A DNA stretch of 64,000 nt from Halothece sp. PCC 7418 (lineage in GTDB: Bacteria > Cyanobacteriota > Cyanobacteriia > Cyanobacteriales > Rubidibacteraceae), in contig NC_019779.1 in the NCBI RefSeq assembly GCF_000317635.1, positions 3,906,001 to 3,970,000 of the forward strand, read 5' to 3'. Positions 25,331 to 43,277 of the stretch are shown one piece after another. Numbering within the stretch: position 1 is the stretch's first letter; the number at the start of each line of letters is the position of its first letter. A program made the translations under genes and the position numbers. The notes below the pieces were generated by a model. That model saw nothing but the letters and a program-made list of their open reading frames with translations. It did no database searches and had not been told where the DNA came from.

Positions 25331-25547
25331 TAGAGTTACTACGAATTCTTTCTTTTACGACTTCCCATGAAGCACCTGAATCTGGATTCTTGAAATAGCT
25401 TTCTTTTCTCTTTCTAAGTTCTTCTTTTTGCCAATCTAAGACAGGGATTTGTTCTGGAGATTGAGCAATATCATCCCACAAGTCTTCTACCAGTTGTATT
25501 TTTTCAGCAGTGGATAATTCAAAAAGCTGAGTGAAGTTTTGATTCAT
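25320..25547 (-). CDS. Addiction-module antitoxin (RHH-like, TIGR02574 type)
   Basis: A 75-residue acidic protein, FELSTAEKIQLVEDLWDDIAQSPEQIPVLDWQKEELRKRKESYFKNPDSGASWEVVKERI. It matches the short addiction-module component family that pairs with ParE/RelE toxins; the SAEKIQLVEDLWD start is characteristic. It is the first gene of the pair, and its promoter region contains the conserved upstream module at 25561-25635. Confidence 0.88.
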   Translation of the reverse strand: MNQNFTQLFELSTAEKIQLVEDLWDDIAQSPEQIPVLDWQKEELRKRKESYFKNPDSGASWEVVKERIRSNSNGK

Positions 25548-25560
25548 CTTTATTTCTTTG

Positions 25561-25635
25561 AGCGCTTAAATAGTTCTATTCTAGTCTAGCTTGTGTCGTT
25601 GCGATTAGGCTACGCCTATGCTTCGCTTTCCGCGC
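25561..25635. repeat. Upstream module shared with the HigBA locus, including a HIP1-nested insert
   Basis: CGCTTAAATAGTTCTATTCTA followed about 24 bases later by GCGATTAGGCTACGCCTATG...CCGCGC. A closely similar block lies at 31821-31890 directly upstream of the HigB gene. The two downstream TA pairs are unrelated in sequence, so the promoter-side DNA rather than the genes is shared. The 25601-25635 part is a HIP1 core split by a 25-nt insert. Confidence 0.7.
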
Positions 25636-25752
25636 TATTTGATAGAGTTTAGTGAAAGCTAATAGTTCAGCATTGCTTTGATCATTGTATTCGCTTGTTT
25701 GATTGCTTCTTTTTCGTTAGTTTTTGCTATTTCAATAATCGCGATCGCGCTG
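25636..25752. other. Spacer upstream of the kinase operon's last gene
   Basis: Short non-coding stretch ending in a HIP1 site (GCGATCGCGC at about 25740-25750) that abuts the stop of the HEPN-like gene. No gene seen. Confidence 0.4.
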
Positions 25753-27787: not shown

Positions 27788-27803
27788 GATAAATTCAATG
27801 GTT

Positions 27804-29687: not shown

Positions 29688-29906
29688 AACATCAATACTG
29701 TCTTAACTTCCGATCAAGATTCGCCCCTTGCTTCAGCAGAGAGGTTTTATCTCATCCCTAAGACAACCATCAACACCTGATTTATCCTGAATCTTATCAC
29801 AGTCTTTTAATGAGTTCGGCTAAATTAAATCTTAAGTTCTGACAAGGTTTGACCGTTTAGACTGATTTTTCATAGTGATCTAACAATGCAGGTATATTTT
29901 GAAATT
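29688..29906. other. Spacer upstream of the kinase gene
   Basis: 219 bases between the kinase ATG and the decayed smc copy. AT-rich, with no repeat or gene recognised; it presumably holds the promoter of the kinase operon. Confidence 0.4.
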
Positions 29907-30152
29907 GAGACTTAAAGTTTAATTCCTAAGACTTGCGTATAAGCACCTCTGGCTTGGGTAACCCCAATAGTACGCATGGAGGCTTCAATCATGGGGCGAC
30001 GTAAACTCACCACAATAAACTGCGCTTCTTGGGCTTGCTGTTGAATCTGGCTAGGCGTTGGACGGGTTTCCTTTGGAATGGTTGAGGAGGTAGCGATCGC
30101 CATTGAAGAGGGTGGCGAAGATGGTTTGGAAGTTTTTGTTGACGGCGTTTGT
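29907..30152 (-). pseudogene. Decayed copy of the smc 3' end, with two internal deletions
   Basis: Starting with GAGACTTAAAGTTTAATTCC, this block is nearly identical to the smc end at 32741 onward and encodes the same C-terminus ([11 protein letters not shown]). It then jumps. The join at CTAGGCGTTGGACGGG fuses two smc sites that both contain GTTGGACG, removing about 135 bp. A second deletion of about 50 bp removes LDKPDDISNAN. Further along, the minus strand reads [19 protein letters not shown] versus [19 protein letters not shown] in smc. It is in the same orientation as smc, so the two copies are direct repeats about 2.8 kb apart. It is non-functional. Confidence 0.9.
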
Positions 30153-30222
30153 TTGACCTAATTGACAAATTATTCGCTGTCACCTTACTATAAAGTAAGA
30201 AAATAAGATTAAAGTAAGGAAA

Positions 30223-30462
30223 ATGGAAGCAAGAATAACGGTTAAAGGGCAAATTACTCTACCGAAAGCCTTACGGGATGCCATGCACCTGAAAACAGGA
30301 GACAAAGTTTTGTTTGAACCACTAGAAGATGGAACGTATGTCATTAAGCCACGAACAACAGATGTAAAATCTCTCAAAGGCTGTGTCAATTATCAGGGAA
30401 CTCCAAAAACCCTAGAAGAGATGAATGCTGCAATTGAACAAGAAGCAAGAACCAATTTGTAA
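30223..30462 (+). CDS. AbrB/MazE-type antitoxin (VapB-like)
   Basis: A 79-residue swapped-hairpin AbrB DNA-binding protein: MEARITVKGQITLPKALRDAM...LKTGDKVLFEPLEDGTYVIKP. It neutralises the PIN toxin encoded next and should repress the shared promoter. It shares a TAATG junction with the toxin gene. The module sits between two decayed smc fragments, which suggests insertion. Confidence 0.9.
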   Translation: MEARITVKGQITLPKALRDAMHLKTGDKVLFEPLEDGTYVIKPRTTDVKSLKGCVNYQGTPKTLEEMNAAIEQEARTNL

Positions 30463-30857
30463 TGTATGCGATTGATACTAATGTTCTGATTCGGTATATT
30501 ATCGAAGATGATCCCGAACAAGCACAAAAGGCAACAGAAGCAATTGAACAGCTAACAACAGAGAAACAAGGGTTTATCTCTTGTATTGTCTTATGTGAAT
30601 TGAATTGGGTACTTAAAACAGCTTATAAGATTTCTAAGCCTGAAAGAGTCGCAACATTGCAAAAAGTCCTGTCTGTTCCTGTCTTTGAAATTGAGCAACT
30701 GGATTGTTGTCTGAAGGCTTTGAGACGGTATGAGAAAGGAAAAGCTGATTTTTCTGATTATCTAATTCAGCAAATTGGCGAAAAACATGGATATGAGATT
30801 CTTCTAACTTTTGATCAAAAAGCATCTAGAGAGACTGGCTTTCAATGTCCTTTTTGA
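30462..30857 (+). CDS. vapC: VapC-like PIN-domain ribonuclease toxin
   Basis: A 131-residue PIN domain. The first catalytic Asp is in [12 protein letters not shown], an acidic residue in [11 protein letters not shown], and the C-terminal acids in [17 protein letters not shown] and LLTFDQKA. VapC toxins cut specific tRNAs or rRNA. The start codon overlaps the antitoxin stop (TAATG). The gene ends 16 bp before a second smc-derived fragment. Confidence 0.9.
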
Positions 30858-30872
30858 CACTCCCATCAAAAA

Positions 30873-30926
30873 GTCGTCGGGTTTATCCAGTTGGAGATGA
30901 CCATCCCCCTGAGAAAGAGTGGCGAA
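30873..30926 (-). pseudogene. Second short smc-derived fragment
   Basis: The plus-strand string GGTTTATCCAGTTGGAG is shared exactly with smc at about 33090-33106, with continuing similarity on both sides (GTCGTC.. and ..GTGGCGAA). On the minus strand it reads [11 protein letters not shown], against [11 protein letters not shown] in SMC. This is exactly the part missing from the fragment at 29907-30152, so the two fragments are complementary remains of one copy, split by the VapBC module. Confidence 0.7.
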
Positions 30927-31054
30927 AGCGGTTTATCAAATATGAGTGGATTGAAGTTTCAGCTTACAACAGTTATAGCTTGTGTAGCGACGATCGCGCA
31001 ACTTTAAAAAGTAGTCGCTTGATTAAAAAGTTAGGTGTTGCTTTGTTATTGCTA

Positions 31055-31222
31055 ATAGAGTTAGTGTTAGACCCATTTGCGGGATCGGGTTCAACTGGGA
31101 TCGCAGCAGTGGGATTAGGAAGGATTTTCTTAGGGTTTGAGATCAGACGTGATTATTGTGATATAGCTGTGAAAAGATTTGAGGATTTTATCCAAGAAAG
31201 AGAAAACTTTTTCGAGTTTTAA
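31055..31222 (+). pseudogene. Fragment of an amino-DNA methyltransferase (motif I end)
   Basis: The peptide [20 protein letters not shown], then [21 protein letters not shown], is the C-terminal SAM-binding end of N4/N6 (beta-class) DNA methyltransferases. The catalytic (S/D)PP(Y/W) block and the target domain are absent. The preceding in-frame codons come from repeat A and smc-derived DNA and are not methylase-like, so this is a truncated remnant. It ends 4 bp inside the convergent HigA gene. Confidence 0.75.
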
Positions 31223-31518
31223 TTTTCAAAAACTGTAATTTCTTCTTTCAACTTTTTTCCTACCTGATCTTTGACAGTATCTAAATCATAATCCATCTGC
31301 AATCCTAGCCAAAAATGTGGCGACATCTTGAAGAAATAAGCTAAACGTAGAGCCAAATCTGCGGTGATTGCTTTTTTGCCATTAATAAGGTCATGGATCT
31401 GTTGGGTTGGTACTTTTAAAGACGAAGCAATTTGATTGATCTCAAGATTCATTGGTTTAATAAATTCTTCTAACAGTACCTCTCCTGGGTGAATGGGATT
31501 TAATTTATCTTCTTTCAT
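31219..31518 (-). CDS. higA: HigA-family antitoxin (XRE helix-turn-helix)
   Basis: A 99-residue XRE-type protein of the HigA/VapI family: [20 protein letters not shown] ... [29 protein letters not shown], then [11 protein letters not shown]. It follows the HigB-like toxin gene by 9 bp, the toxin-first order typical of higBA. It should autoregulate from the promoter upstream of the toxin gene. Confidence 0.9.
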
Positions 31519-31527
31519 TGGCTCACC

Positions 31528-31809
31528 TCAATGATAATCAACAATCTCGACATCTATAGCATTACCTTCTTCCCATTTAAAGCAAATCCGCCATTGGTTG
31601 TTAACTCGAATGCTGTATTGTCCTTCTCTGTCACCAGTCAAACGTTCTAAACGATTCGCTGTTGGAACTCTAAGGTCTTGGAGGGTTTCTGCGCGGTTTA
31701 ACATTCGTAACTTTCGCAGGGCTACTTGCTGAATTTCTGAAGGAAGTTTCCGCGATCGAGTACGTTCAAAGATTTTTTCAGTTTCTTTATCTTTAAAGTT
31801 TCGGATCAC
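31528..31809 (-). CDS. higB: HigB/RelE-family toxin
   Basis: 93 residues from GTG 31809: VIRNFKDKETEKIFERTRSR...KLPSEIQQVALRKLRMLNRAE...LTGDREGQYSIRVNNQWRICFKW. This matches HigB host-killing RNases of the RelE superfamily (RxxNQWRICFxW signature). The frame is open to 31935, but the extra 42 residues run through the repeat module and are not toxin-like, so I take GTG 31809 as start. Confidence 0.87.
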   Translation of the reverse strand: MIRNFKDKETEKIFERTRSRKLPSEIQQVALRKLRMLNRAETLQDLRVPTANRLERLTGDREGQYSIRVNNQWRICFKWEEGNAIDVEIVDYH

Positions 31810-31820
31810 TTTTTCGTTGG

Positions 31821-31948
31821 ATCGCTTGAACAGTTCTATTCTAACTTTTGCAGCTGCGATTAGGCTACGCCTGTGCTTCGCTTTTCGCGCAAACGCGCAG
31901 TTAGTTTGAGATGTATTAAAGGCGCGATCGCGCAATTTAAAAGAGTAG
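31821..31948. repeat. Shared TA-upstream module plus repeat A
   Basis: CGCTTGAACAGTTCTATTCTA, then GCGATTAGGCTACGCCTGTG...TTCGCGC (31821-31890), matches 25561-25635 upstream of the ParE-type pair. It is followed by an exact copy of repeat A (31922-31948). The 31856-31890 segment is a HIP1 core with a 25-nt insert. Confidence 0.7.
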
Positions 31949-32082
31949 GGATATGATTAAAAAGTTGGGTTTTGCTATGCTCTACTAGAACCTACATTCT
32001 TAAGTTTGCTTTAAATTTCACGTGATCTGTGATTAATTTATGATACTTTTTATAGAATTTATGTATTTTTGGATTTTCAATT

Positions 32083-32583
32083 ATGAATGAAAAACCCTCG
32101 CTATTGAATAGAGTTTTCACAATAATTTCAGAGAAAGACTTTGAAAATAAATTTGCGCCTGTTTATCGTAAACTTGTACGCCTTCGAGAGAAGATAGGAC
32201 AGAAGCGAAAAAAGTTTGGAATTTTTGATGTGCATAAATTTGAAACTGAACATCTCCTACAAGACTTTACACAAATTCAGTCATTTACAGAAAAAATAGG
32301 AGATGATGTAAATAATTGGGAAGAACAGCAACAGTTAACATATCCCGAAAAACAACTTTATACATCCCATAGAAAGAAAGTTCAGTTAGAATTAGACGAA
32401 ATTTTGAAAATGATAGAAAATCGTGATCCTACATTTTGGGAAGATGTTGAAAACTTGATTTTAAATTTGACAAGAAAAGTAACAGAAATAATGAGTTTTC
32501 TTCCTGACTTAATGCCTGAACCTTTGTATAAGTTTCTTTTTGGTAAAAGTGTAAGGTCTGTTCGTCACTTATTACCAAAATAA
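32083..32583 (+). CDS. Hypothetical protein (166 aa), island gene
   Basis: I do not recognise this gene. It is Lys/Glu-rich and helical (KLVRLREKIGQKRKKFGIFD, LQLDEILKMIENRDPTFW), with no signal peptide. The start at ATG 32083 follows AT-rich DNA. Base composition is visibly more AT-rich than in the neighbouring smc. It lies alone between the HigBA module and smc, inside the segment bracketed by the two smc 3' copies, so it is probably acquired. A defence or addiction role is possible only by location. Confidence 0.6.
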   Translation: MNEKPSLLNRVFTIISEKDFENKFAPVYRKLVRLREKIGQKRKKFGIFDVHKFETEHLLQDFTQIQSFTEKIGDDVNNWEEQQQLTYPEKQLYTSHRKKVQLELDEILKMIENRDPTFWEDVENLILNLTRKVTEIMSFLPDLMPEPLYKFLFGKSVRSVRHLLPK

Positions 32584-32745
32584 AGATTGGATACAGCTTA
32601 GTTTATTGTGGTGCCGTAATCGTCTTACAGCGCGATCACTGTCAAGGAGAAGAATAAGTGCATCGAAATCGACTCAATTGGCTAATGCATATTTTTGTAT
32701 TATTGTCAATGCGTAAGTTCTACTTTAATTAGAGGAAAATGAGAC

Positions 32746-35700
32746 TTAAAGTTTAATTCCTAAGACTTGCGTATAAGCGCCTCTGGCTTGGGTAACCCCA
32801 ATGGTTCGCATGGAGGCTTCAATCATGGGGCGACGTAAACTCACCACAATAAACTGCGCTTCTTGCGCTTGCTGTTGAATCATATTCGCTAGGCGTTGGA
32901 CGTTCGCACCATCTAAAAACATATCCACTTCATCAAAGGCGTAGAAGGGGGATGGGCGATAGCGTTGGAGTGCGAAAATAAAACTCAGCGCCGTTAAGGA
33001 TTTTTCTCCCCCAGACATAGAATGTAACCGTTGGACGGGTTTTCCTTTCGGGTGCGCGATAAGATTCAGGTTGGCGTTGCTGATGTCGTCAGGTTTATCC
33101 AGTTGGAGGTAGCCATCGCCATCGGAGAGGGTGGCGAAGATGGTTTGGAAGTTTTCGTTAACGGCGTTAAAGGCTTCGTTAAAGGCTTCAATTCTGCGGG
33201 TGGTAAAGGTTTCAATGCGGAGAAGCAGTTCATTGCGTTCTTCTTGGAGGGTGGTGAGTTTTTCCGTCAGTTCATCGAGACGGGCTTGGGTTTTTTCGTA
33301 TTCTTCTAACGCCAGCATATTAACGGGTTCCATGTCTTGGAGGCGTTTTTGCATCTGGCGCAGTTCCTCTTGTAAGTGGGTGAGTTGTTCGCTGTAGTTG
33401 GCGAAGGTAATCGTTTCGCTGGGGGTTTCTTGCACTAATTCGGGGATTTCGGGAAGCGGTTGCGCAAGGGAATTTCCTTTCTCCTCATACTGACTTTGTA
33501 GCGTGGCGAGTTTTTCTTGTTGTTCGCTGAGGGTTTCTTGCAGTTTTTGCTGCTTCCAAGTTTGCTTGTCTTGTTGACGTTGATGGGAACGGAGGGTTTT
33601 GTCTGCGCGATCGCGCTCTTCTTTCAGTTTACCCAGTTTCTCTTGTAATTGGGCAATTACAGTGTCGGTTTCGGCAATTTTCGCTGCAATGTCTTGCTTT
33701 TGCTGTTCAACGGTTGCTTTCTGTTGGTTTGTTTCTACCACCCGCTGTTCATATTCCGTTAACCGTTGTTCAGAAGTAGAGATTTTTTCCTGTAATCGTA
33801 ATTGTTCCGTTTCTAACTGCTGTTGTTGCTGTTTCGCTTCATTGAGGGCGGTTTCTGCTTGCTTTAACTCCGCTTCCTGCTGTTTAATCACCTGCTGAAT
33901 TTCTTGCCATTGGGTGTTGCTGTGACTAGCTTCTAACTCCGCCAGTTCCGCTTGCAGTTGCACTAACTCGGTTTCTTGTTGGGGGATACTATTGGCGAGG
34001 AGTTCTAAACGCCCTTGCAGTTGCATCAACTCATTTTCATTTTGACTCAGTTGTTCACTAACTTGCTGTTGCTGTTGGCTGAGACGTTCAATTTCCTGCT
34101 GGGTTTGTTTATACTGCCATTGTTGTTCTTGATGCTGCTGGCGAGTTTCGTTGAGTTGTTCTGTCAGTCGTTGGCTTTCAGTGGTTGCTTGTTCAATTTT
34201 GGGGTCACAAACCGCTAAAATTTCCTCAATTTCCGCTAAACGGGCTTTTAACTGTTGAATTTCATCGGATTCCGTTTCCGTCGCTGTGCCAAAATGAAGA
34301 CTAGAACGGGTGCTGCGACTTCCCCCACTCATCGCACCACTGCTTTCTAAAATTTCTCCCTCTAACGTCACGATGCGGGTTTTCCCCAGATGGGGACGGG
34401 CTTTTTCTAAAGTGGTAAACACCGCAGTATTGCCAAAAACATAAGCAAAAATGACCTGATAGCGCGGTTCACACTCGATTAAGTTTGCTGCATAATCCAC
34501 GAAGCCATTGGCATAGCGTAACGCAGCGGTCATATTTTGACGCGGGGGTTGAATTTTATTTAACGGGAGAAAAGTTGCTCGCCCACCGCGTTTTTCTTTC
34601 AGGAGTTCAATGGCTTTTGCGCCCACTTGGTCATTTTCAACCACAATTTGCGCCAGTCTTCCCCCGGCTGCGGTTTCTAAGGCGAGTTGATAGCGGGGTT
34701 CTACTTGTCCCAGTTGGGCGACTAATCCGCACACTCCCGTTATGGGGCTCTGTAAAATGATTTGGGTGGCGTATGTTCCTTGGGCTTTTTCTTCCGCTTC
34801 TTTAGTGGCTTCCAGTTTGTCTAACTTGCGTTGTTTGTCTCGTTGTTCTTGTAAGAGACGAGTTTGGGTTGCTTGTTGCAGTTTCTTTTCTTCTTCCGCG
34901 TGACTCAGTTGTTGGGCGAGAGTTTGAACCTGTGCTTGCAGTTGGTTAACGGTTTGTTCAAGTTCTTGAAGCGTCTGTTGTTTCACTTCTAGTTCAGGTG
35001 TGAGGGAAGCAAGGGTGGTTTGTTGTTCTTCAATTTTCTGCTGGAGTTGCGTTTCTCGTTCTTGCAGTTGCGCTTGTTCTGTGCGCTGGGGGTTGAGACT
35101 ATTTTGCAGTTGATTAATTTGTTGACTGAGTTGAGTTTGTTGCTGAATCCATTCTTCTGATGCTGACGCGATCGCGTTGGCTTGTTCTCGACTTTCTGCT
35201 AATTTAGTTTGAGCAGTATGCTGGGCTTGCTGTAACTCTTGAAGCTGTTTCTCACTTAGGTCTGCTAATTCCTGCTGTAAGGTTTGTAAGCGCGTCTGCT
35301 GTTCTTGCAGTTGCGTGCGCGTCTGTTCCTGTGCAGTTGCAGTTTCTTCCAGCGTTTGATTTAACTCTGCTTCCCGTTGTTGCAGTTGTTCTTGTTGGGC
35401 TTTTTGTGTCGCCAGTTTCGAGGTGGCTTCTAACTGTTCATCTTCTCCCAAGGCTTTCACTTGGGCGTTCAAGTCATCCAGCGTTTGACTGGCTTGTTGG
35501 ATTTGGGTTTCTGTGGTTTGAATCGTCTGCTGGAGTTGGGTTAAAGTTTGCTCATTCCCCGTAATTTCCCCCTGTAACGTATCAATTTGCTGTTTTAGGG
35601 CTTTCCACTCCAAAACCGCTTCCCATTGTTGTTTCTCTTGAATTTCCGCCTTCAGTTGACGATATTTCTCCGCTTTGTTGCGTTCACTGGCAGCGCGATC

Positions 35701-36300
35701 GCGCGTTTTAATCAATTCTTGCTGGAGAATCTCACAGCGTTCCTCTTTTTCTTTTACCGTCTCCAGGGTTTCCTTCGCCTTGGCAATTTTGCGGTCAAAC
35801 TCCGCCACCCCCGCCAACTCATCAATAATTTCCCGTCGTTCGCGCCCATTCATGCTAATAATGCGCGTGACATCACCCTGTAACACCACGTTATAGCCTT
35901 CGGGATAAATTCTTAACGCCCGCAGTTGTTCATGGAGTTGGCTTTGTGTACAGGTTTCATCATTAATATAGAACGTGGAAGCATAACTTCCCTCCTTCGT
36001 CACCCGCAGCCGACGCGCCACCGACCATTCCGTCTCATCATCCAATTCAAAGGTGACCTTAACCGTTGTCTCCGCCCGTCCTTTGCCATTATTCTGATTA
36101 TTAACCAGATCAGGCAATCGTTCGGCACGCATTCCCCGCGAACTGGCTAAACCCAACGCAAACAGCAGCGCATCGAGAATGTTCGACTTTCCTGATCCAT
36201 TGGGACCCGAAACCACTGTAAACCCCGTTAGCAAGGGAATCTGTGTCGTCTGACCAAACGACTTAAACCGTGATAATTCTAAACGCTTAACATGAACCAT
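32746..36300 (-). CDS. smc: Chromosome segregation protein SMC
   Basis: Full-length 1184-residue SMC ATPase, the core of bacterial condensin. The N-terminal Walker A is VSGPNGSGKSNILDALLFAL (residues about 30-50). A long Gln/Glu-rich coiled coil follows, and the hinge around residues 515-655 (ITGVCGLVAQLGQVEP ... GGRATFLPLNKI). After the second coiled coil come the ABC signature LHSMSGGEKSLTAL, Walker B FYAFDEVDMFLDG and the C-terminus [11 protein letters not shown]. The gene appears intact. Its 3' end is duplicated in decayed form 2.8 kb downstream, and a 44-bp direct repeat lies just upstream of its start. Confidence 0.96.
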   Translation of the reverse strand: MVHVKRLELSRFKSFGQTTQIPLLTGFTVVSGPNGSGKSNILDALLFALGLASSRGMRAERLPDLVNNQNNGKGRAETTVKVTFELDDETEWSVARRLRVTKEGSYASTFYINDETCTQSQLHEQLRALRIYPEGYNVVLQGDVTRIISMNGRERREIIDELAGVAEFDRKIAKAKETLETVKEKEERCEILQQELIKTRDRAASERNKAEKYRQLKAEIQEKQQWEAVLEWKALKQQIDTLQGEITGNEQTLTQLQQTIQTTETQIQQASQTLDDLNAQVKALGEDEQLEATSKLATQKAQQEQLQQREAELNQTLEETATAQEQTRTQLQEQQTRLQTLQQELADLSEKQLQELQQAQHTAQTKLAESREQANAIASASEEWIQQQTQLSQQINQLQNSLNPQRTEQAQLQERETQLQQKIEEQQTTLASLTPELEVKQQTLQELEQTVNQLQAQVQTLAQQLSHAEEEKKLQQATQTRLLQEQRDKQRKLDKLEATKEAEEKAQGTYATQIILQSPITGVCGLVAQLGQVEPRYQLALETAAGGRLAQIVVENDQVGAKAIELLKEKRGGRATFLPLNKIQPPRQNMTAALRYANGFVDYAANLIECEPRYQVIFAYVFGNTAVFTTLEKARPHLGKTRIVTLEGEILESSGAMSGGSRSTRSSLHFGTATETESDEIQQLKARLAEIEEILAVCDPKIEQATTESQRLTEQLNETRQQHQEQQWQYKQTQQEIERLSQQQQQVSEQLSQNENELMQLQGRLELLANSIPQQETELVQLQAELAELEASHSNTQWQEIQQVIKQQEAELKQAETALNEAKQQQQQLETEQLRLQEKISTSEQRLTEYEQRVVETNQQKATVEQQKQDIAAKIAETDTVIAQLQEKLGKLKEERDRADKTLRSHQRQQDKQTWKQQKLQETLSEQQEKLATLQSQYEEKGNSLAQPLPEIPELVQETPSETITFANYSEQLTHLQEELRQMQKRLQDMEPVNMLALEEYEKTQARLDELTEKLTTLQEERNELLLRIETFTTRRIEAFNEAFNAVNENFQTIFATLSDGDGYLQLDKPDDISNANLNLIAHPKGKPVQRLHSMSGGEKSLTALSFIFALQRYRPSPFYAFDEVDMFLDGANVQRLANMIQQQAQEAQFIVVSLRRPMIEASMRTIGVTQARGAYTQVLGIKL

Positions 36301-36325
36301 AACGGTTATTGTAACGGCAATTGGA

Positions 36326-36369
36326 GCGCGATCGTTTATCCTTGCAGTAGTTTATAGCTTAACAGAGAC
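36326..36369. repeat. 44-bp direct repeat, copy 1
   Basis: Begins GCGCGATCGTT and ends CAGTAGTTTATAGCTTAAC, then AGAGAC. It matches 41557-41600 at 40 of 44 positions by eye, in the same orientation. The pair brackets 5.2 kb that contain a complete RM module and four TA modules. It also contains a HIP1 half-site. Confidence 0.8.
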
Positions 36370-36401
36370 AACATGATGGGATATGGTGTAATACCATCTC
36401 A

Positions 36402-37364
36402 TTAAAAAGTAGTCATAGAAAATAAAGACATTTGTTTATATTGTGTAGTATTCCCCTCAATATGTTGTCTAAGCGCAGAAGCAACATATTCCGCTAATTT
36501 GACAGGAACTGCATTAGCAATCGCCAGTTCAATATTTGTTTTACTACCATTAACCCATTTAAAACTTTCAGGAAATGTTTGTATCAGACTGCGCTCTTTA
36601 GTCGTTAATGGTCTGACTAATTCTAAATTAGAGGTTGCATCTAAATGATGACCTGGATATCCTTTTGGAATGGGTCGATTAACACTCCGTATCGTAGCAC
36701 TCGGTTCATCAATACTATAAATTCCTCGACGTGCATAACTTCGAGGATGTCGATAATAATATTCTGTTCCTAATGTTGTTCCCAAATAATCACGAACCGT
36801 CATTGGCTTAGAAGCTAAATTATTCAATAAGAAATCATCTAAAAAGTTATCTTCTCCATTAAATTCCCCAATAACAAAGTAACGTTTTCGCTTTTGTGGG
36901 ACACCACATAAACTGGCATCAAGTAATTGTACTGTAATCCCATAACTTCTAGATTTTAATAATTTAATCGATTCTTTGTAAACATCTTTTTTAACCAGTT
37001 GATCAACATTCTCCATAACAAAATATTGAGGCTTGACTTGTTCAATAATTCTCGCAAAAGAATAAGTCAAATTTCCCCTACCAAGATTTTCATCTCTTTT
37101 ACCAGCTTGAGAAAAATCTTGACAAGGCGGTCCGCCAATAATTATGTCAGGTTCAAAATCCTTGAGTACCTCGATACTACTTTCAATATCACTTAAATCA
37201 ATCGGAAAAATGTCATGTGAGAAATTATTTTTATAGATGTCTATTGCCGTTTTCCAATTATCTGCTGCTACGACTAGTTGAAAGCCTTGATTTTGAAATC
37301 CTAATGTTAAGCCGCCACAGCCAGCAAATAAATCAACGACTCTTTTAGAAGCTACTTTACTCAT
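36402..37364 (-). CDS. DNA (cytosine-5)-methyltransferase of RM module A
   Basis: A C5 methylase of about 320 residues. Motif I is VVDLFAGCGGLTLGFQNQGF, motif IV GGPPCQDFSQAG with the catalytic Cys, motif VI ENVDQL and motif VIII QKRKRYFVIG; the C-terminus is LAIANAVPVKLAEYVA. It follows the endonuclease gene. I take ATG 37364, one base after the endonuclease stop; a GTG at 37382 would give a 17-bp overlap instead. Its partner is HindVP-like, a family whose known member recognises GRCGYC, so that target is a reasonable guess. Confidence 0.92.
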   Translation of the reverse strand: MSKVASKRVVDLFAGCGGLTLGFQNQGFQLVVAADNWKTAIDIYKNNFSHDIFPIDLSDIESSIEVLKDFEPDIIIGGPPCQDFSQAGKRDENLGRGNLTYSFARIIEQVKPQYFVMENVDQLVKKDVYKESIKLLKSRSYGITVQLLDASLCGVPQKRKRYFVIGEFNGEDNFLDDFLLNNLASKPMTVRDYLGTTLGTEYYYRHPRSYARRGIYSIDEPSATIRSVNRPIPKGYPGHHLDATSNLELVRPLTTKERSLIQTFPESFKWVNGSKTNIELAIANAVPVKLAEYVASALRQHIEGNTTQYKQMSLFSMTTF

Positions 37365-37365
37365 G

Positions 37366-38457
37366 TTATCCAAAAATTTCACTTGTCCCTAGAATAGCAG
37401 CATCAAATCTCCTTTCTGGACTTAACATTCTCTCACCTTCATTAAGAATAATATTTTTAATTTCATTTCTTTTAATACGTGGAGATGTTATTTGATCACA
37501 CTTCATATACCGTCTCGTGATTTTACCAGAAACAGCAAAGGCTTTATCATTTTTAGTATCATAAGTAAGATTATCAATGACTCCTCTTTGATCTATTTTT
37601 CCTTTTTTTGAAAAATCAACGAGCATCTTTGCTAGCCAGATTGCTGTTCGATAATGTCGAGTAATTTTTTGTCGGTTAGAAGAAGATTTACAGACATCTA
37701 TGAATAAGCGAGTTAAAGCATAATCACTCCAAACAAATATGTCCAAACAGTTTTCATGTAGAATTAGTGTTTTCCCTTCTGTTTTCCAGATTGGTTGTAA
37801 GAGAAAAGGCTCTTGCTGACTTAATCGACTCAATAGCACAGCATCGATCGCGCTAATAATTTTATCAGAATTCTGTCGCATTACGTCAGGATCATACCAA
37901 TTATTCTCCCGAATATCTTCTAGGTGTGGTGAGATTAAATCTTTTAGTGCGTTTGCTTCTTCTTGAAATTTTAAGGCAATGCTTAAAGCAAGATACACAA
38001 TTGTATCAGGACGAATCACAATCTCACAGCCATAATTTTCGTCTGATTCAGAAAAGGTCGTATGATCAGGTAAAGCTGTTAATTTAATTTCAATTCCTCG
38101 AAGTGGACTTAATTGCTTATTTTGAATACGATTAATTACCAAATCTATTCTTGGTAAACCATTATTAACTAAATGTTGATAACAATTGTATTGATTTTCA
38201 AATGCGTAAAAGGTCTCGTTAGCTAAAGGATTAATTCCGTAAATACTATTAACTTTTATCGTTTTCTTTTCAACTTCCAAGTCAGAATTTAATACTAAAT
38301 AAATGGGATCAATTTCTTTTTGGTGCATATAACACCCCAAAGCCGTAGGAAATGCAGTGTTAAATTGATTTTTTCCCCATGATTCTTTTAAAGAGAAATC
38401 TTTATTGGTATGCTTTAAACCATAAAGACTTGGAGAAAGCTGTTGATCAGAAGCCAT
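37366..38457 (-). CDS. Type II restriction endonuclease, HindVP-like
   Basis: A 363-residue protein next to a C5 methylase. The N-terminus LSPSLYGLKHTNKDFSLKES...WGKNQFNTAFP and the core GIEIKLTALPDHTTF (residues about 118-135) resemble the HindVP/Hin1DI family. The E-x-K in IEIKLTALPD is the probable PD-(D/E)xK metal site. The family assignment is from memory and not verified. The gene is first in the module and its stop is adjacent to the methylase start. The first HIP1-spacer array starts 44 bp upstream of its ATG. Confidence 0.75.
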   Translation of the reverse strand: MASDQQLSPSLYGLKHTNKDFSLKESWGKNQFNTAFPTALGCYMHQKEIDPIYLVLNSDLEVEKKTIKVNSIYGINPLANETFYAFENQYNCYQHLVNNGLPRIDLVINRIQNKQLSPLRGIEIKLTALPDHTTFSESDENYGCEIVIRPDTIVYLALSIALKFQEEANALKDLISPHLEDIRENNWYDPDVMRQNSDKIISAIDAVLLSRLSQQEPFLLQPIWKTEGKTLILHENCLDIFVWSDYALTRLFIDVCKSSSNRQKITRHYRTAIWLAKMLVDFSKKGKIDQRGVIDNLTYDTKNDKAFAVSGKITRRYMKCDQITSPRIKRNEIKNIILNEGERMLSPERRFDAAILGTSEIFG

Positions 38458-38500
38458 TATAAAAATAATTTAAAATGAATATAAATTAATTATAACTTAC

Positions 38501-38706
38501 GAAGGGAGCGCGATCGCGGTTTTGGGAAGGGGAGGGAAGCGCGATCGCGTGTTTTTGGGAAGGGGAGGGAGGCGCGATCGCTGTTTGTGGGAAGAGGAGG
38601 AAGCGCGATCGTTGTTTTGAGAAAGGAGAGAAGGCGTGATCGCTGTTTGTTTAGGAAGGGAAGGGGAGCGCGATCGCTGTTATTGGGAAGGAGAGGGAAG
38701 CGCGAT
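38501..38706. repeat. HIP1/purine spacer array 1
   Basis: Seven units of 31-34 bp. Each has a HIP1-type core (GCGCGATCGC or one-base variants) at about 38508, 38539, 38572, 38603, 38634, 38668 and 38700, followed by TGTTTTTGGGAAGG and GGAGGGAA-type purine DNA. The frames open through it encode only repetitive peptides and are not genes. It separates RM module A from the next TA module. Confidence 0.88.
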
Positions 38707-38749
38707 ATGATCAAGAAAAACAAGAGATATTTTTTATGGAAGCGAGAAC

Positions 38750-38971
38750 ATGACTAATTTATTAACACAAGCCTTCAATAAAGCTCAAAATTTACCAGAA
38801 CATCTTCAAGATGAACTAGCTAAACAAATGATTGAAGATATTAAAAGCGAGCTTCAATGGCAAAAGACGTTATCTCAACCTCAAAATTCTTCTCTAGATG
38901 AATTAGCCCGTCAAGCCTTAAATGATTCTTTCGAGGGGAAAACTAAGGAGATGGGCTTTGATGAAATATGA
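38750..38971 (+). CDS. Putative antitoxin of a RelE-type pair
   Basis: A 73-residue acidic, helical protein: LTQAFNKAQNLPEHLQDELAKQMIEDI...QNSSLDELARQALNDSFEGKTKEMGFDEI. The C-terminal LARQALxxxxxGKTxxxGFDEI pattern is typical of cyanobacterial antitoxins that precede RelE-like toxins. Its stop overlaps the next ATG (ATGA). The partner toxin is truncated, so the antitoxin may be left over. Confidence 0.75.
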   Translation: MTNLLTQAFNKAQNLPEHLQDELAKQMIEDIKSELQWQKTLSQPQNSSLDELARQALNDSFEGKTKEMGFDEI

Positions 38972-39099
38972 ATTCCGAACTAACTAATGATTTCGTCCAA
39001 CGTTTTGCTCAATTGCCAGAGAGAGTCAAAAAGACGGCACGGAAGAATTATAAACTCTGGAAGGATAACCCAACGTATCCTAGTACTCAACCAAGATGA
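38968..39099 (+). pseudogene. Truncated RelE-type toxin
   Basis: Reads MNSELTNDFVQRFAQLPERV, then KKTARKNYKLWKDNPTYPST, and stops after 43 residues. A normal toxin of this type has about 85-90 residues and continues through the catalytic beta-sheet. Sequence similarity to the family ends near the ..NPTYPS.. position, which points to a recombination break rather than a point mutation. Confidence 0.75.
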
Positions 39100-39214
39100 T
39101 TATGACAGGCTGGGAGTCGAAGTCGTTCTAGTTTCACCCGAGCATCGACCACAAAAAATTGCCAATCCACAGTGGCTTGTTGACCATTGCGAGTCTCTTC
39201 CCAATCACTCATAA
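39080..39214 (+). pseudogene. C-terminal fragment of an unidentified small gene
   Basis: In another frame, directly after the RelE-type fragment, the DNA reads RILVLNQDDYDRLGVEVVLV, then SPEHRPQKIANPQWLVDHCE...SLPNHS and a stop at 39214. It has the look of real coding sequence, but I see no start of its own. It is probably the 3' remnant of a different gene fused at the recombination joint near 39080. I do not recognise the family. Confidence 0.4.
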
Positions 39215-39270
39215 TTTACAATTGAATCAGGAGGAGGATTATCCCTTGAGCTTATAACTGAGGCTTTTTT

Positions 39271-39507
39271 ATGCTAAGTGTGACAATTGATGAAATTCAG
39301 CTCGATCCTTCAAAGTATCTGCGCCAAGTGGAGGCAGGTGAAACCATTGTGATTGTTCGAGCAGATAAAGTGATCGCTGAACTGAGACCAATCAATACGA
39401 ATAAGCCATTACGACCGTTTGGATTATGTGCAGGGGAGTTTACCGTGCCAGATGATTTTGATTCTCCATTGCCAGAAGATCTTCTCGATGCATTCGAGGG
39501 TAAATGA
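39271..39507 (+). CDS. Phd/YefM-type antitoxin
   Basis: A 78-residue protein of the Phd/YefM class: MLSVTIDEIQLDPSKYLRQV...EAGETIVIVRADKVIAELRPI, then the toxin-binding tail FGLCAGEFTVPDDFDSPLPE...DLLDAFEGK. Overlaps the toxin gene by 4 bp (ATGA). Confidence 0.92.
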   Translation: MLSVTIDEIQLDPSKYLRQVEAGETIVIVRADKVIAELRPINTNKPLRPFGLCAGEFTVPDDFDSPLPEDLLDAFEGK

Positions 39508-39887
39508 GGATTCTGCTAGATACACACATCTTTCTATGGTTTATCAGTGGCGATGCCCGGTTGTCGAAAGATGTTCGGGATGCAATTCGCGATCCAGATA
39601 ATGAGGTTTACCTGAGCGCAATTTCAGTCTGGGAAGCAATTGTCAAGTACCAGTTGGGCAAGCTACCTTTGCCGGAGCATCCCGAAACTTATTTACCCAA
39701 ACAGCGCGATCTGCATCAAATTACCAGTCTTGACCTTAATGAAAGTAGTGTGCTTCAACTGGCTAAACTGCCAACATTACATCGCGATCCATTTGACAGG
39801 ATGTTGATCTGCCAAGCATTACAAAACGGTTTGACCATTGCGACAGTAGATACAGCAGTCCGTGCGTATCCAGTCAACGTTATGTAA
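39504..39887 (+). CDS. VapC-like PIN-domain toxin
   Basis: A 127-residue PIN ribonuclease: MRILLDTHIFLWFISGDARL, VYLSAISVWEAIVKYQLGKL, then HRDPFDRMLICQALQNGLTI and a final Asp in IATVDTAV. All four expected acidic positions are visible, so it looks functional. It forms a two-gene operon with the preceding Phd-type antitoxin. Confidence 0.92.
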   Translation: MRILLDTHIFLWFISGDARLSKDVRDAIRDPDNEVYLSAISVWEAIVKYQLGKLPLPEHPETYLPKQRDLHQITSLDLNESSVLQLAKLPTLHRDPFDRMLICQALQNGLTIATVDTAVRAYPVNVM

Positions 39888-39947
39888 CATTAGTCTCCTT
39901 TCGTCGTCTAGATAAGACGCGATCGCTGTTTGAGAAGAGTAGAGAAG

Positions 39948-39982
39948 GCGCGTAGGTCGAAGACCGAGCCGTAGAGCCTCGC
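39948..39982. repeat. 25-nt insert nested in a HIP1 core (type B)
   Basis: GCGCG, then TAGGTCGAAGACCGAGCC..., then TCGC followed by TGTTT as in undisturbed units. The insert contains the small inverted repeat GGTC-GAA-GACC. Confidence 0.75.
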
Positions 39983-40035
39983 TGTTTGATGAAGGAGAGG
40001 GGAGCGCGATCGCTGTTTGTGTGGAAGGGACAGAA

Positions 40036-40071
40036 GCGCGTAGGTCTCCAGACCGAGCCGTAGAGCCTCGC
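40036..40071. repeat. 26-nt insert nested in a HIP1 core (type B variant)
   Basis: GCGCG, then TAGGTCTCCAGACCGAGCC..., then TCGC. The stem GGTC/GACC is kept while the loop differs (TCCA versus GAA) from the copy at 39948. Confidence 0.75.
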
Positions 40072-40151
40072 TGTTATTGGGAAGAGGAGGAAGCGCGATC
40101 GCTGTTTTGGAGAAGGGGAGCGCGATCAGGTTAATAATTAGGGTTTGTTTT

Positions 40152-40358
40152 TTAAGCAGCAGTTGAATCAGGTGTCGGTAAGGGCAAACCATCTTCCTCA
40201 AGTAGAAGCTCTAACACTTCTTGACCATTTCTAGCGGCTTCTTGGTAGCTGTTTCCGTGAGTTCGATAAGTTTGTTCAGGAAAATCGGGAAGATGAACAA
40301 GATAACAGTTGTCTTCTTCTGACCAAACAATGAGCATTTGATATCTAAGATTATTCAT
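40152..40358 (-). CDS. hicB: HicB-family antitoxin
   Basis: A 68-residue partial-RNase-H-fold protein: LRYQMLIVWSEEDNCYLVHL, then PDFPEQTYRTHGNSYQEAARNGQEVLELLLEE. This is the short HicB form without an extra DNA-binding domain. It overlaps the upstream hicA gene by 4 bp (ATGA). With the toxin inactivated by a stop codon, the antitoxin may be unpaired. Confidence 0.9.
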   Translation of the reverse strand: MNNLRYQMLIVWSEEDNCYLVHLPDFPEQTYRTHGNSYQEAARNGQEVLELLLEEDGLPLPTPDSTAA

Positions 40359-40570
40359 TTGTCCTCTCCAGACTGTTGTTTAATAAGTTTGATCGCTTCT
40401 TTGACCTCTTTCTCTTGATAAGGTTTAGCATCATCCCCATCCTTACCAGACAAAGTTACTCGACCAGGGTAAAGACTGTGAAGCTACTTGGTATGACTTC
40501 CTTTACCAGAATGCTCAGAAAAACCAGCTTTTTTGAGCATGGCTTTGAGTTCACGGATTTTTTTGGGCAA
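40355..40570 (-). pseudogene. hicA: hicA toxin gene with in-frame stop (W29*)
   Basis: From TTG 40570 (preceded by TAGGAG) the frame reads PKKIRELKAMLKKAGFSEHS...GKGSHTK, then TAG (40484-40486), then LHSLYPGRVTLSGKDGDDAK...PYQEKEVKEAIKLIKQQ to a stop overlapping hicB. HicA proteins have Trp or another aromatic after GKGSHTK and contain the catalytic His of GKGSH. Here a TGG-to-TAG change explains the break. The rest of the frame is intact, so inactivation is recent. Confidence 0.85.
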
Positions 40571-40659
40571 GTTCTGATACTCCTACAGCTAAAGCCCTCG
40601 TTACCTAAGATAATATAGAATCCTGCATTTGGCTCTCCTTTATTTTGGTGCGAGTTACT

Positions 40660-40778
40660 ATCGCTGTGTGGAGAGTAGAGAGGCGCGGAAAGCGAAGCAT
40701 AGGCGGAGCCACATCGCTGTTGGGAAGGAGAGGGAAGCGCGATCGCTGTTTTTGGGAAGGAGAGAGGCGCGATCGCGT
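40660..40778. repeat. HIP1/purine spacer array 3
   Basis: HIP1-type cores lie at about 40660 (partial), 40683 (split by an insert), 40737 and 40767, with GGGAAGGAGAGGGAA tails. The last core abuts the stop codon of the next antitoxin gene (40779). Confidence 0.85.
40683..40717. repeat. 25-nt insert nested in a HIP1 core (type A)
   Basis: GCGCG, then GAAAGCGAAGCATAGGCGG..., then ATCGC followed by TGTTGGGAAGG as in undisturbed units. Type A copies also lie at 25601-25635 and 31856-31890 (opposite strand). Confidence 0.78.
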
Positions 40779-41096
40779 TTAGTCTTGATTAACAGATACT
40801 GATGGTTTAAAGTCAATTGTTAAACCAACTGCTTTAAGAAGAGAAGTAAGTGTCATCAAATTAGGACTTTCTTTTTTACTAACGATACGCTTTAATTCCT
40901 CTCTAGAAATATTCGCTTCTTTGGCAAAGTCTAAAGTTTCTTCTCTAGCTTCAATAACATTATTTAGAGCCAAGAAAAAAGCCTCCATATTTCCATCCTC
41001 TAAAGTTTCATCAAGAGCAGCTTTGAGATATTGTGATGAATACTCTGGATTACTTAGTCTTACTAGCAAATCGTTTCTGTAACTTTTTATGGGCAT
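40779..41096 (-). CDS. XRE-like antitoxin of a HigB/Gp49-type pair
   Basis: 105 residues from ATG 41096: MPIKSYRNDLLVRLSNPEYS...SQYLKAALDETLEDGNMEAFFLALNNVIEARE, then a helix-turn-helix (DFAKEANISREELKRIVSKKESPNLMTLTSLLKAVGL). This is the HTH antitoxin family encoded after Gp49-like killer proteins. The frame extends to 41186, but the toxin-distal ATG fits family length and lies 4 bp after the toxin stop. Confidence 0.9.
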   Translation of the reverse strand: MPIKSYRNDLLVRLSNPEYSSQYLKAALDETLEDGNMEAFFLALNNVIEAREETLDFAKEANISREELKRIVSKKESPNLMTLTSLLKAVGLTIDFKPSVSVNQD

Positions 41097-41100
41097 TAGA

Positions 41101-41442
41101 TTACTCTCCTCGGCTTTCTTTTTTGTAAGCATTCCAAAGCTCTTTCGCAAGTCTAATATCTTTATTTTGACTGTTTTTCGAGCCACCTGTCAGCAAAAGG
41201 ATTACTCGTCTCCCTCTAATTCCATAATAAACTCGGTAGCCTGCACCAAAAGAAAACCGTAATTCATAGATTCCCCCACCTAAGTTTTTATTATCGCCAA
41301 AATTGCCCAAACTGATGCGGTCAAAACGAGCATCAATTCGAGCTTGAAATTGAGAGTATAAGGTTTCAAACCATTCATCAAAAGGACAAATTCCCTCTTG
41401 ATTTACATACTTTTCAATTTCCCATAACTGCTCTTGATTCAC
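41101..41442 (-). CDS. RelE/HigB (phage Gp49-like) toxin
   Basis: A 113-residue addiction-module killer protein: CPFDEWFETLYSQFQARIDA...RFDRISLGNFGDNKNLGGGIYELRFSFGAGYRVYYG, then VILLLTGGSKNSQNKDIRLA. The ELRxxxGxGYRVYY and LLxGGxKxxQxxDI signatures are clear. It is the first gene of the pair and appears intact. Confidence 0.92.
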   Translation of the reverse strand: MNQEQLWEIEKYVNQEGICPFDEWFETLYSQFQARIDARFDRISLGNFGDNKNLGGGIYELRFSFGAGYRVYYGIRGRRVILLLTGGSKNSQNKDIRLAKELWNAYKKESRGE

Positions 41443-41529
41443 AATTTTACTAAATCAATTCAGAAGAAGAAGACTCGTTAGCTACGTATTTTACCTTAAA
41501 ATACTGCATAATAAACTACTTTATACTTG

Positions 41530-41566
41530 GCGATCGCGCTTTGGGAAGGAGAGAAGGCGCGATCGT
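41530..41566. repeat. HIP1/purine spacer array 4 (two cores)
   Basis: GGCGATCGCGCTTTGGGAAG, then GAGAGAAGGCGCGATCG. Its last core is also the start of the second 44-bp direct repeat. Confidence 0.8.
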
Positions 41567-41600
41567 TCACTCTTACAGTAGTTTATAGCTTAACAGAGAC
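41557..41600. repeat. 44-bp direct repeat, copy 2
   Basis: GCGCGATCGTTCACTCTTA, then CAGTAGTTTATAGCTTAAC and AGAGAC. It is the same-orientation partner of 36326-36369, with four mismatches clustered in the middle and the last 25 bases identical. Confidence 0.8.
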
Positions 41601-41728
41601 CGATTAAGCCTTATCGGAATTAGCTTATACCGAGGGTTACAGGTTTACACAGCATCAATGTTGTCTAATATGGTATTAAATTGTATAATGTTGCATTAAC
41701 GGGCAAAATCAAAGTGTTGATCTTAGCC

Positions 41729-41917
41729 ATGAAAAAAGATGAACTTTTAACCCCTGATGAAGTCGCAAAAATTCTGAAAGTGCATTCAGAAACAGTGCGT
41801 CGTTGGCTACGTGAAGGGACTCTTTCAGGAATCAAATTAGGAAAGAGTTTAAGGTGGCGTATTAAACGAGAAGAATTAGACAGATACATCGCTCAACAAG
41901 GAAGGACTGAGAACTAA
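41729..41917 (+). CDS. Excisionase-type helix-turn-helix protein, candidate RM controller
   Basis: 62 residues from ATG 41729: MKKDELLTPDEVAKILKVHS...ETVRRWLREGTLSGIKLGKSLRWRIKREELDRYI. This is the MerR-like DNA-binding fold of the excisionase family. It ends one base before the methylase gene, so the two are co-transcribed. Its position at the head of an RM module suggests control of the methylase or module, but it is not a classical XRE-type C protein. It could also be a leftover recombination-directionality factor. Confidence 0.75.
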   Translation: MKKDELLTPDEVAKILKVHSETVRRWLREGTLSGIKLGKSLRWRIKREELDRYIAQQGRTEN

Positions 41918-41918
41918 A

Positions 41919-43277
41919 ATGACAACAGTAAATTTTATTGATCTCTTTGCAGGAATAGGGGGAATGAGATTAGGGTTTGAATCAGCTTGTCATGAATTAG
42001 GTTTAACTCCAAATTGTGTATTTTCTTCAGAAGTCAAAAAAACTGCTATTTTAACCTACGAGAAAAATTTTAATTCTCAAGTGGAGGGTGACATCACTGA
42101 AATTAATTTAAATGCCATCCCAAATTTTGACTTTTTACTGGCTGGTTTCCCTTGTCAAGCATTCAGCACGGCGGGAAAACGACAAGGCTTTTTAGATACA
42201 AGAGGAACATTATTCTTTGAAATTGAGAAGATATTAAAACATCATCAACCACAAGGCTTTCTTTTAGAAAATGTCGATAATTTGGTTAATCATGACCAAG
42301 GCAAAACTTTAAAGACCATAGAAAACAACTTGTCTTTATTAGGATATCAAATTTCTTGGGGTGTTTTTAATTCCAAGTATTTTGGAGTTGCCCAAGAAAG
42401 AAAAAGAATTTATATTACTGGATTAAAGCAAGAAAAAGTTTCCTTAACCGAATTGCATTTCTTAATGAATGCTCAAAAAGAAGTCCGATTAAACGATATT
42501 CTAGAAACTAATCAGCCTACCTTAACCGATGATTTTTCTATAAAACTAACAGCTGCTTTTTCTCCTCAAGAATTAGTGGGCAAAGCCATTAAGGATAAAC
42601 GCGGTGGCAAGAATAATATTCATAGTTGGGAACTTTGCCTAAAAGGAAATATTACGACAGAACAAAAAGAAATATTAAATACTTTACTCAAGATTAGAAG
42701 ATATAAAAAATTTGCCCAACTCAAAGGAATTAAATGGATGGATGGAATGCCATTAACCTTAGAAGAAATAGAAATGTTCTACGCAGAAAATAAATCATAT
42801 CTTTGTCCCAAAAACTTAAAGAAAAGTTTAGATAATTTAGTCGAAAAAGGATATTTAAAATTAGAACACCCAAGGGATGAAGTAGCAGTAGAAGAGAAAG
42901 GAAAAATGATCAAAAAAAGAGTACCGCGAGAAGATTTACCGAAGGGATATAATATTGTAACAGGAAAATTAAGTTTTCCCATTTCAAAAATCCTTGATCC
43001 TAACACTGTAACACCAGCATTAGTAGCAACAGATATGGCAAAATTAGCAGTTGTCGATGGTGAAGGAATTAGAAAGCTGACGATCAGAGAAGGATTGAGA
43101 TTATTTGGCTTTCCTGAAAGTTACCAAATCAATTTAAAGCCAGATCAAGCCTACGATCTTTTGGGAAATACAGTTGTTGTACCTGTGATTAAGTCTGTTT
43201 CTCTAAGACTGCTAACGACAGCTTTAGCACACTTGAATAATAGAGACATTCAAAGCTCTTTACCTGTCTGCTCATAA
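41919..43277 (+). CDS. DNA (cytosine-5)-methyltransferase of RM module B
   Basis: A 452-residue C5 methylase. Motif I is FIDLFAGIGGMRLGFESACH, motif IV GFPCQAFSTAGKRQGF, motif VI ENVDNL, motif VIII ERKRIYITG, and the C-terminus DLLGNTVVVPVIKSV. It is longer than usual because of a helical, Lys-rich variable region (residues about 190-370), as in GGNNCC-type methylases (M.NgoBV/M.NlaIV, from memory). It converges on and overlaps the endonuclease gene by 28 bp, so transcripts collide. Confidence 0.92.
   Translation: MTTVNFIDLFAGIGGMRLGFESACHELGLTPNCVFSSEVKKTAILTYEKNFNSQVEGDITEINLNAIPNFDFLLAGFPCQAFSTAGKRQGFLDTRGTLFFEIEKILKHHQPQGFLLENVDNLVNHDQGKTLKTIENNLSLLGYQISWGVFNSKYFGVAQERKRIYITGLKQEKVSLTELHFLMNAQKEVRLNDILETNQPTLTDDFSIKLTAAFSPQELVGKAIKDKRGGKNNIHSWELCLKGNITTEQKEILNTLLKIRRYKKFAQLKGIKWMDGMPLTLEEIEMFYAENKSYLCPKNLKKSLDNLVEKGYLKLEHPRDEVAVEEKGKMIKKRVPREDLPKGYNIVTGKLSFPISKILDPNTVTPALVATDMAKLAVVDGEGIRKLTIREGLRLFGFPESYQINLKPDQAYDLLGNTVVVPVIKSVSLRLLTTALAHLNNRDIQSSLPVCS

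Follow-up and report, generated by a model that had tools for sequence, protein, structure and literature searches.

What are the short sequences that split HIP1 cores in the genome of Halothece sp. PCC 7418, and how could they have arrived there? The window, i.e., the whole stretch of 64,000 nucleotides analysed here (positions 3906001-3970000 of a genome of 4,179,170 bases in a single contig), contains five inserts of 25-26 nt that interrupt cores of HIP1, an 8-base motif very common in the genome, and direct reading of the sequence confirmed all five at the places given by an earlier sequence-only reading. Two belong to type B and lie on the forward strand: a 25-nt insert (TAGGTCGAAGACCGAGCCGTAGAGC) at 39948-39982, between GCGCG and CTCGC, with the hairpin GGTC-GAA-GACC followed by GCC-GTA-G(a)GC with a bulge; and a 26-nt loop variant at 40036-40071 with GGTC-TCCA-GACC. 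The change of loop within a constant GGTC/GACC stem, as described earlier, is thus real, TCCA replacing GAA with one additional base and GACCGAGCCGTAGAGCCTCGC being common to both copies; the TCCA loop recurs in the congeneric genome G005 (L071). Type A is represented by a 25-nt insert (GAAAGCGAAGCATAGGCGGAGCCAC) at 40683-40717 on the forward strand, between GCGCG and ATCGC, with the mini-hairpins GC-GAA-GC and GGC-GGA-GCC, and, again in line with the earlier description, by two copies on the reverse strand, at 25601-25635 (A2, second hairpin AGGC-GTA-GCCT) and 31856-31890 (A3, whose matching site in G003, L065, is also filled). Both type B inserts are held by a spacer array of ~30-bp units (GCGCGATCGCTGTTT..GRGAGGGA) at 39919-40130, and the type A insert at 40683 by another short array of these units at 40683-40776, both on the forward strand. 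From the HIP1 core positions (39919, 39950, 40006, 40038, and 40095; 40685, 40739, and 40769), a core-to-core spacing of 29-32 bp was obtained in both arrays once the 25-26 nt are discounted, in line with the ~30-32 bp stated in the earlier reading.

When up to three mismatches were allowed, the 21-nt core of type A matched the 4.18-Mb genome four times versus none for the reversed control; three matches are in the window and the fourth, at 1409489 (three mismatches), lies beside a single HIP1 half. The type B 21-mer likewise had four matches versus none, two of them exact and both in the window. A chance origin of the type A and type B copies is ruled out by these reversed controls. The five window copies folded no better than shuffled sequences (z from -0.27 to +0.98) and, by this folding model, look decayed or imperfect; strict scans detected none of them because their hairpins are imperfect. 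In addition, three of the four genome-wide type A matches fall within ~15 kb (window 25601-40717), and a near-identical stretch in G003 (L065) carries a type A insert that is the same or almost the same, which suggests that this region was shared horizontally.

The inserts at 39948-40717 sit between small toxin-antitoxin genes. A Phd/YefM-like antitoxin gene (39271-39507, forward strand, below the Pfam cut-off) and a PIN-domain toxin gene (39504-39887, forward strand) adjoin the first array, a HicB-like antitoxin gene (40152-40358, reverse strand, a weak match below the Pfam cut-off) lies between both arrays, and an addiction-module antidote/HTH gene (40779-41186, reverse strand) with a Gp49-like partner is located beyond the second array. 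Downstream of the PIN-domain gene, homology to G001 ends at the HIP1 site 39919-39926. Comparison with G001 (L012, L063) placed ends of toxin-antitoxin block homology at or a few bases from HIP1 at window positions 38670, 39926, and 40735, as would be seen if these blocks were cassettes with HIP1 junctions; between the window and the G001 blocks there were also alignment ends away from HIP1, and the count of HIP1-bounded ends, being inflated by the tandem array units, was kept out of the evidence.

Beyond the window, the inserts share one design, consisting of a HIP1 left half (GCG, often GCGAT), a first mini-hairpin, 0-2 nt, a second mini-hairpin, and a HIP1 right half (ATCGC). There are many sequence families with this one architecture, and the stems differ between families. 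The scan for GCGCG-insert-ATCGC proposed by the sequence-only reading yielded 143 places in the same genome (N22-28) versus 38 in the reversed control; the excess is inflated because the genome is HIP1-rich, and the matches listed, which reach to ~2.9 Mb, included several distinct two-hairpin HIP1 inserts plus many non-hairpin places. A free scan was also run, its pattern being GCG-NN-hairpin-(0-2)-hairpin-(A)TCGC with triloops, closing pair, and stems all unconstrained. In 1.09 Mb from the genus it detected 21 distinct inserts (43 matches counting both strands). Run on this sequence with seven alternative flank pairs, of which two had one HIP1 half, the scan gave none, and with a pair offset from HIP1 it gave three. 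The 60 stretches scanned included 10 picked for hairpin-like inserts, 4 for the array or weak type B matches, and 20 more for a match to type B or to the window array or its genes, and because of this selection the yield is no estimate of density. All 36 distinct hairpins were closed by a C-G pair, and in 35 of the 36 the loop read (A/G)NA on one strand, with stem families including GGTC/GACC, GTAGC/GCTAC, TGAGC/GCTCA, GTCGC/GCGAC, and TGCGC/GCGCA.

Pairing was also evaluated in 54 distinct elements from named contigs, for which the search pattern fixed the HIP1 halves, the inner stem pairs, and the loops, and left four pairs free. These four pairs were Watson-Crick in 184 of 216 cells, compared with a mean of 144 and a maximum of 160 in 1000 shuffles; the loop counts of this set were kept out of the evidence since the pattern had fixed the loops. 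A covariation count on alignment A1 was rejected as pairing evidence, being circular, as its six sequences had been chosen for pairing.

The loops are informative about the nucleic acid that may fold. GNRA and UUCG are RNA tetraloops, and the loops here are of another kind. DNA mini-hairpins with GNA or GNNA loops and at least two G-C pairs have been described as extraordinarily heat-stable and nuclease-resistant (PMC4686876); both loop kinds occur in the inserts (GGTC-GNA-GACC, GGTC-GCCA-GACC), along with common ANA loops, to which that stability statement does not extend. The closeness of the loops to the GNA of stable DNA mini-hairpins points to a single-stranded DNA form, although which strand carries the GNA loop varies between hairpins, so that no strand is constantly the favourable one. 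Two canonical copies were predicted to fold as a three-way clover with GCGAT paired to ATCGC (z of -2.3 and -2.9). An RNA intermediate, i.e., a small hairpin RNA that was reverse-transcribed, would also explain why hairpin structure is kept, the sole support found for it; it is most improbable given the DNA-type GNA triloop in place of an RNA tetraloop and the lack of any Rfam match in window positions 25000-42000.

Two-hairpin pairs as a general feature of the genome were considered and rejected, as no excess over shuffles was found in 400 kb of the same genome chosen blind (54 pairs versus 66 in shuffles when HIP1 was not required; 0 versus 0.1 for GNA/TNC pairs). The HIP1-bordered scan of these 400 kb gave 4 places versus 2.2 in shuffles, all four poor; the elements are rare in the Halothece sp. 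PCC 7418 genome outside the chosen regions. Some elements have similar hairpins with different partner hairpins (L023:17740 and L069:5196; L022:9678 and L026:6823), as though halves could be swapped between elements; the hairpin pair of L026 sits outside HIP1.

Did the inserts enter sites that existed before them? The joined flanks of 14 inserts from the same genome were searched in the genus and then aligned. These were 14 of 20 candidate places, excluding the three array copies, 2869234, and two places that had resembled inserts in the GCGCG-N22-28-ATCGC scan and were dropped beforehand, 1428500 and 2197061 (the latter a normal coding stretch, presumably ClpP-like). The sequence-only reading had predicted that orthologous sites with an empty HIP1 core should exist, and results revealed empty counterparts in relatives or paralogues for 6 of the 14 inserts, 4 of the 6 with an intact HIP1 (GCGATCGC) at the empty site. 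The 27-nt insert at 1642779 is missing from G003, which reads GGCGCGATCGCGAC. The 24-nt insert at 1769975 is identical in G000 and G005, and the site is empty with GCGATCGC in G001, G002, and G004. For the 24-nt insert at 1836181, G003 is empty at GCGTTCGC, one base from HIP1, and the 27-nt insert at 2551547, in a coiled-coil gene, has empty counterparts in two G001 genes and one G000 paralogue, with many G003 repeats aligning partly ambiguously. The 31-nt two-hairpin insert at 1277738 (copies L023:17740-17778, L116, L117, and L118) is located in a dispersed repeat of the same genome, where it is filled in the four G000 repeat copies showing both flanks, whereas the readable G003 and G001 copies are empty with HIP1 intact; thus, it rides on another repeat. 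Finally, the 27-nt insert at 374801 is absent from five relatives, in which HIP1 is not intact. Only partial matches were obtained for 25601 (A2), 862853, 1429676, 1475206, and 1842178, no other-genome match was present among the matches listed for 1267272 and 1837634, and 31856 (A3) was filled in the sole relative found. For the five window copies, no empty orthologue could be demonstrated, and no colinear counterpart of the type B array was found in relatives. The insert at 1769975 (L028:9975-10008; L102 in G005) sits close to the 5' end of a RelA/SpoT gene and is a possible lineage marker.

Because several relatives are empty at the same site in several cases, insertion appears a simpler reading than repeated deletion, and the movement considered below is inferred from this presence and absence. 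The opposite possibility is that the inserts are not mobile and represent old sequence, inherited or duplicated locally, which was lost elsewhere, with HIP1 borders arising later. The 3' part common to the two type B copies within one array, where local duplication is possible, and the concentration of three of the four type A matches in one 64-kb window would fit such a history, as would the G005 loci L139 and L145, which share the same insert together with the same flanks; these two indicate that some copies multiply by larger duplication. For the class, however, this history is contradicted by the intact-HIP1 empty sites in several relatives, and identical inserts also occur at sites with unrelated flanks, on different contigs, and in different genera, making it very unlikely. 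For example, a single insert has copies at L163, L174, L175, and L183 whose flanks beyond HIP1 are unrelated.

If the inserts move, HIP1 appears to be their target. A query with the interior of a Nostocales-type insert, from which HIP1 had been left out, produced 49 matches in four genomes; among the 30 fetched and read, 27 started with GCGAT, 27 ended with ATCGC, and 25 had both, with three of the remaining five loci off by one base. The type B interior, also queried without HIP1, had 14 matches in six genomes, 13 starting with GCG-TA and with the ends ATCGC (8), CTCGC (2), ATCGT (3), and ATCTT (1). Inserts equally common outside HIP1 would have spoken against the earlier claim of HIP1 as the target, and such a distribution was not seen, the two weak type B-like matches in the own genome (three mismatches each) outside HIP1 being contrary cases. 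The break point lies after GCG in the TA and TT types, and the AT types fit GCG^ATCGC. Together with the empty sites, this confinement supports, for the class, the proposal of the sequence-only reading that a very small mobile sequence targets HIP1.

Insertion of a tiny repeat into HIP1 is itself already published and not new, since SDR5 (Elhai et al. 2008, Genome Res 18:1484) is stated to insert inside HIP1, between nucleotides 3 and 4 (PMC4390886, 2015); CGCGATCGCG is listed in the same source as the HIP1 extension for Halothece PCC 7418. The conserved design of two hairpins and the finding of inserts within genes go beyond the sequence-only reading. Directed cutting at HIP1 has been suggested as a partial explanation of SDR5 insertion (PMC4390886). 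Close to that suggestion, a HIP1-specific nuclease or nickase might open HIP1 and a hairpin fragment might be captured during repair, consistent with the insertion point inside HIP1 and with the HIP1 richness of all 15 matching genomes described below. Capture of this kind should take up any sequence, yet 35 of the 36 hairpins follow one loop rule and all 36 one closing pair, and this explanation is considered unlikely.

To what extent does the class follow HIP1? A covariance model built from six elements, none of them from G002 or G004, matched all six congeneric genomes with 234 matches at E ≤ 1 (a few read on both strands) among the best 150 candidates per genome, distributed as 15 in G000, 35 in G001, 25 in G002, 57 in G003, 28 in G004, and 74 in G005. 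Across the phylum, matches at E ≤ 0.001 were detected in 15 of 117 sampled cyanobacteria, each HIP1-rich with at least 1313 HIP1 sites. Matching genomes thus made up 15 of the 51 with at least 1000 HIP1 sites versus 0 of the 66 others, a comparison uncorrected for relatedness. HIP1 richness alone is insufficient, as 36 of the 51 HIP1-rich genomes had no match under strict filters and a genus-built model. In titled contigs, at least 117 stretches were found, 79 of the 80 listed being cyanobacterial, with genera including Nostoc, Anabaena, Scytonema, Mojavia, Tolypothrix, Gloeocapsopsis, Symploca, and others. One pattern match with poor pairing, in a Propionibacteriaceae MAG (L214:4297-4331), is probably due to chance. 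Outside the order, two genomes had matches, namely G059 with two identical two-hairpin elements in different flanks (L170, L180) and G032 with a single weak match (L173).

Taken as a whole, the inserts probably belong to a large class of small mobile repeats of cyanobacteria, of the SDR5 kind, each of which enters an intact or near-HIP1 site and keeps the two HIP1 halves as borders. With regard to the mechanism, travel as folded single-stranded DNA is the likeliest of those considered, though it is put forward tentatively. The two DNA mini-hairpins of an element would protect it and mark its ends, with half of HIP1 (GCGAT, 5' to 3' on either strand) possibly serving as a miniature REPIN-like tag, and a structure-reading enzyme acting in trans could join it at an exposed HIP1 strand. 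A folded single strand would suit the exact HIP1 borders, the lack of a longer duplication, a shape that is kept with sequence free to vary, the DNA-type loops, and the pairing of the halves. The obvious candidate would be a Y1 (HUH) transposase of the IS200/RAYT type. Counting against this mechanism, the stems vary so much that it is difficult to see how a single enzyme could recognise them by sequence. Y1 transposases gave 78 matches over 11 genomes, every one of which had a match, so that their presence does not discriminate; in G004, whose assembly is 85% complete, the Y1 match is no more than a broken fragment, against 28 matches of the covariance model. None of the 12 Y1 loci fetched from these 78 matches carried HIP1-bordered C-(A/G)NA-G hairpins (at least 5 bp).

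Template switching would need no dedicated transposase. The nascent DNA end would jump between HIP1 sites, with the HIP1 halves (GCG or GCGAT to the left, ATCGC to the right) as the microhomology for entering and leaving the donor, and the hairpins would stall the polymerase and join the halves; because the halves act as microhomology, copying would run exactly from one to the other. Borders that coincide exactly with the HIP1 halves and involve no further duplication, flanks that differ beyond HIP1 in L163, L174, L175, and L183, structure kept rather than sequence, halves that pair in the two folded canonical elements, and the failure to find an autonomous element among the 12 Y1 loci read are all compatible with it. 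Its main difficulty is that several genomes very rich in HIP1 (such as G012 with 10167 sites and G043 with 11975) had no match, and such short microhomology should also copy HIP1-bordered pieces of any length. Template switching is regarded as a serious but less likely alternative.

Within the single-stranded DNA reading, a bolder version may be conceived, in which only structure is replicated: the half-HIP1 borders and two C-(A/G)NA-G mini-hairpins would be kept with the stems free, and the element would spread as nuclease-proof single-stranded DNA. Any DNA of this shape between HIP1 halves could then multiply. Structure-only replication is offered as a speculation with a modest chance of being correct. 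If true, these elements would be among the smallest mobile DNA known, seeding peptides of 8-9 residues into proteins, and HIP1 would be in part their landing and launching site. The literature searched, as far as its accessible text goes, gives no answer on how such tiny repeats move, and the loop rule, the in-frame protein insertions, and the genus families are likewise absent from it, although the original SDR5 paper may hold part of them. The loop rule and the HIP1 borders make the question of movement testable, and the shared hairpin design provides a handle on it.

Among known systems, the inserts agree with SDR5 in description: the insertion point within HIP1 in filled and empty alignments is the same, and copies are dispersed with presence/absence variation. 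The stems of types A and B differ from those of the Nostocales families found in this analysis. In REPINs, a tag stands at each end on opposite strands, and the doublet is much longer than ~25 bp. The inserts resemble REP/REPIN elements as non-autonomous hairpin pairs with a clover fold, a suspected IS200-like enzyme, and end tags on opposite strands; unlike them, they are ~25 bp long, have the borders GCG(AT/TA/TT) and ATCGC with no GTAG/CGTC tag, and are accompanied by no transposase gene with such ends among the 12 Y1 loci. Movement of REPINs has been attributed to IS200-like RAYTs, and a hairpin pair with a clover fold has been proposed for them (PMC3116915); GTAG/CGTC are the REP tags (PMC3733652). 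A minimal element derived from IS200/IS605 would be alike in form, with a hairpin at each end, no target duplication, and a fixed short target, and AT-type inserts are equally readable as containing a 2-bp AT duplication. MITEs, which in cyanobacteria include Nezha (PMC10969869, PMC3733652), are also small, non-coding, and dispersed, but they span 70-300 bp with terminal inverted repeats of 15-30 bp (PMC3733652), whereas whole inserts here measure 24-31 nt and consist of two separate hairpins without such repeats. Rickettsia palindromic elements (~150 bp palindromic repeats) are likewise found in frame in protein genes (PMC10969869), but the inserts are mostly 24-27 nt long and have the fixed HIP1 target.

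Insertion inside genes was evident from empty and filled pairs in four proteins, in which the reading frame is kept since the inserts are 24 or 27 nt long. Compared with empty relatives, a PIN-domain protein gained nine residues adjoining its C-terminus, a RelA/SpoT protein eight near its N-terminus, a helicase eight directly before the FFPTGGGKT motif, and a Mur-ligase-family protein, which we take to be FolC, nine directly before LLLDGAHNP. As judged from these pairs, the elements naturally supply proteins with peptides inserted in frame. Genes do receive inserts, though less often than random placement would give: 61 of 96 elements (those with enough flank among the 117 titled-contig stretches) lay in an open frame of at least 150 codons, versus 362 of 480 random positions. 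Inserted peptides recur, examples being AIASGTALRAIA, AIARSAAPEAIA, and.D.AERSAKGDR, which are different readings of closely related elements. In the own genome, a 24-nt type B insert at 1267272 (L023:7272-7305) was also found in frame, in a recombinase zinc-ribbon domain.
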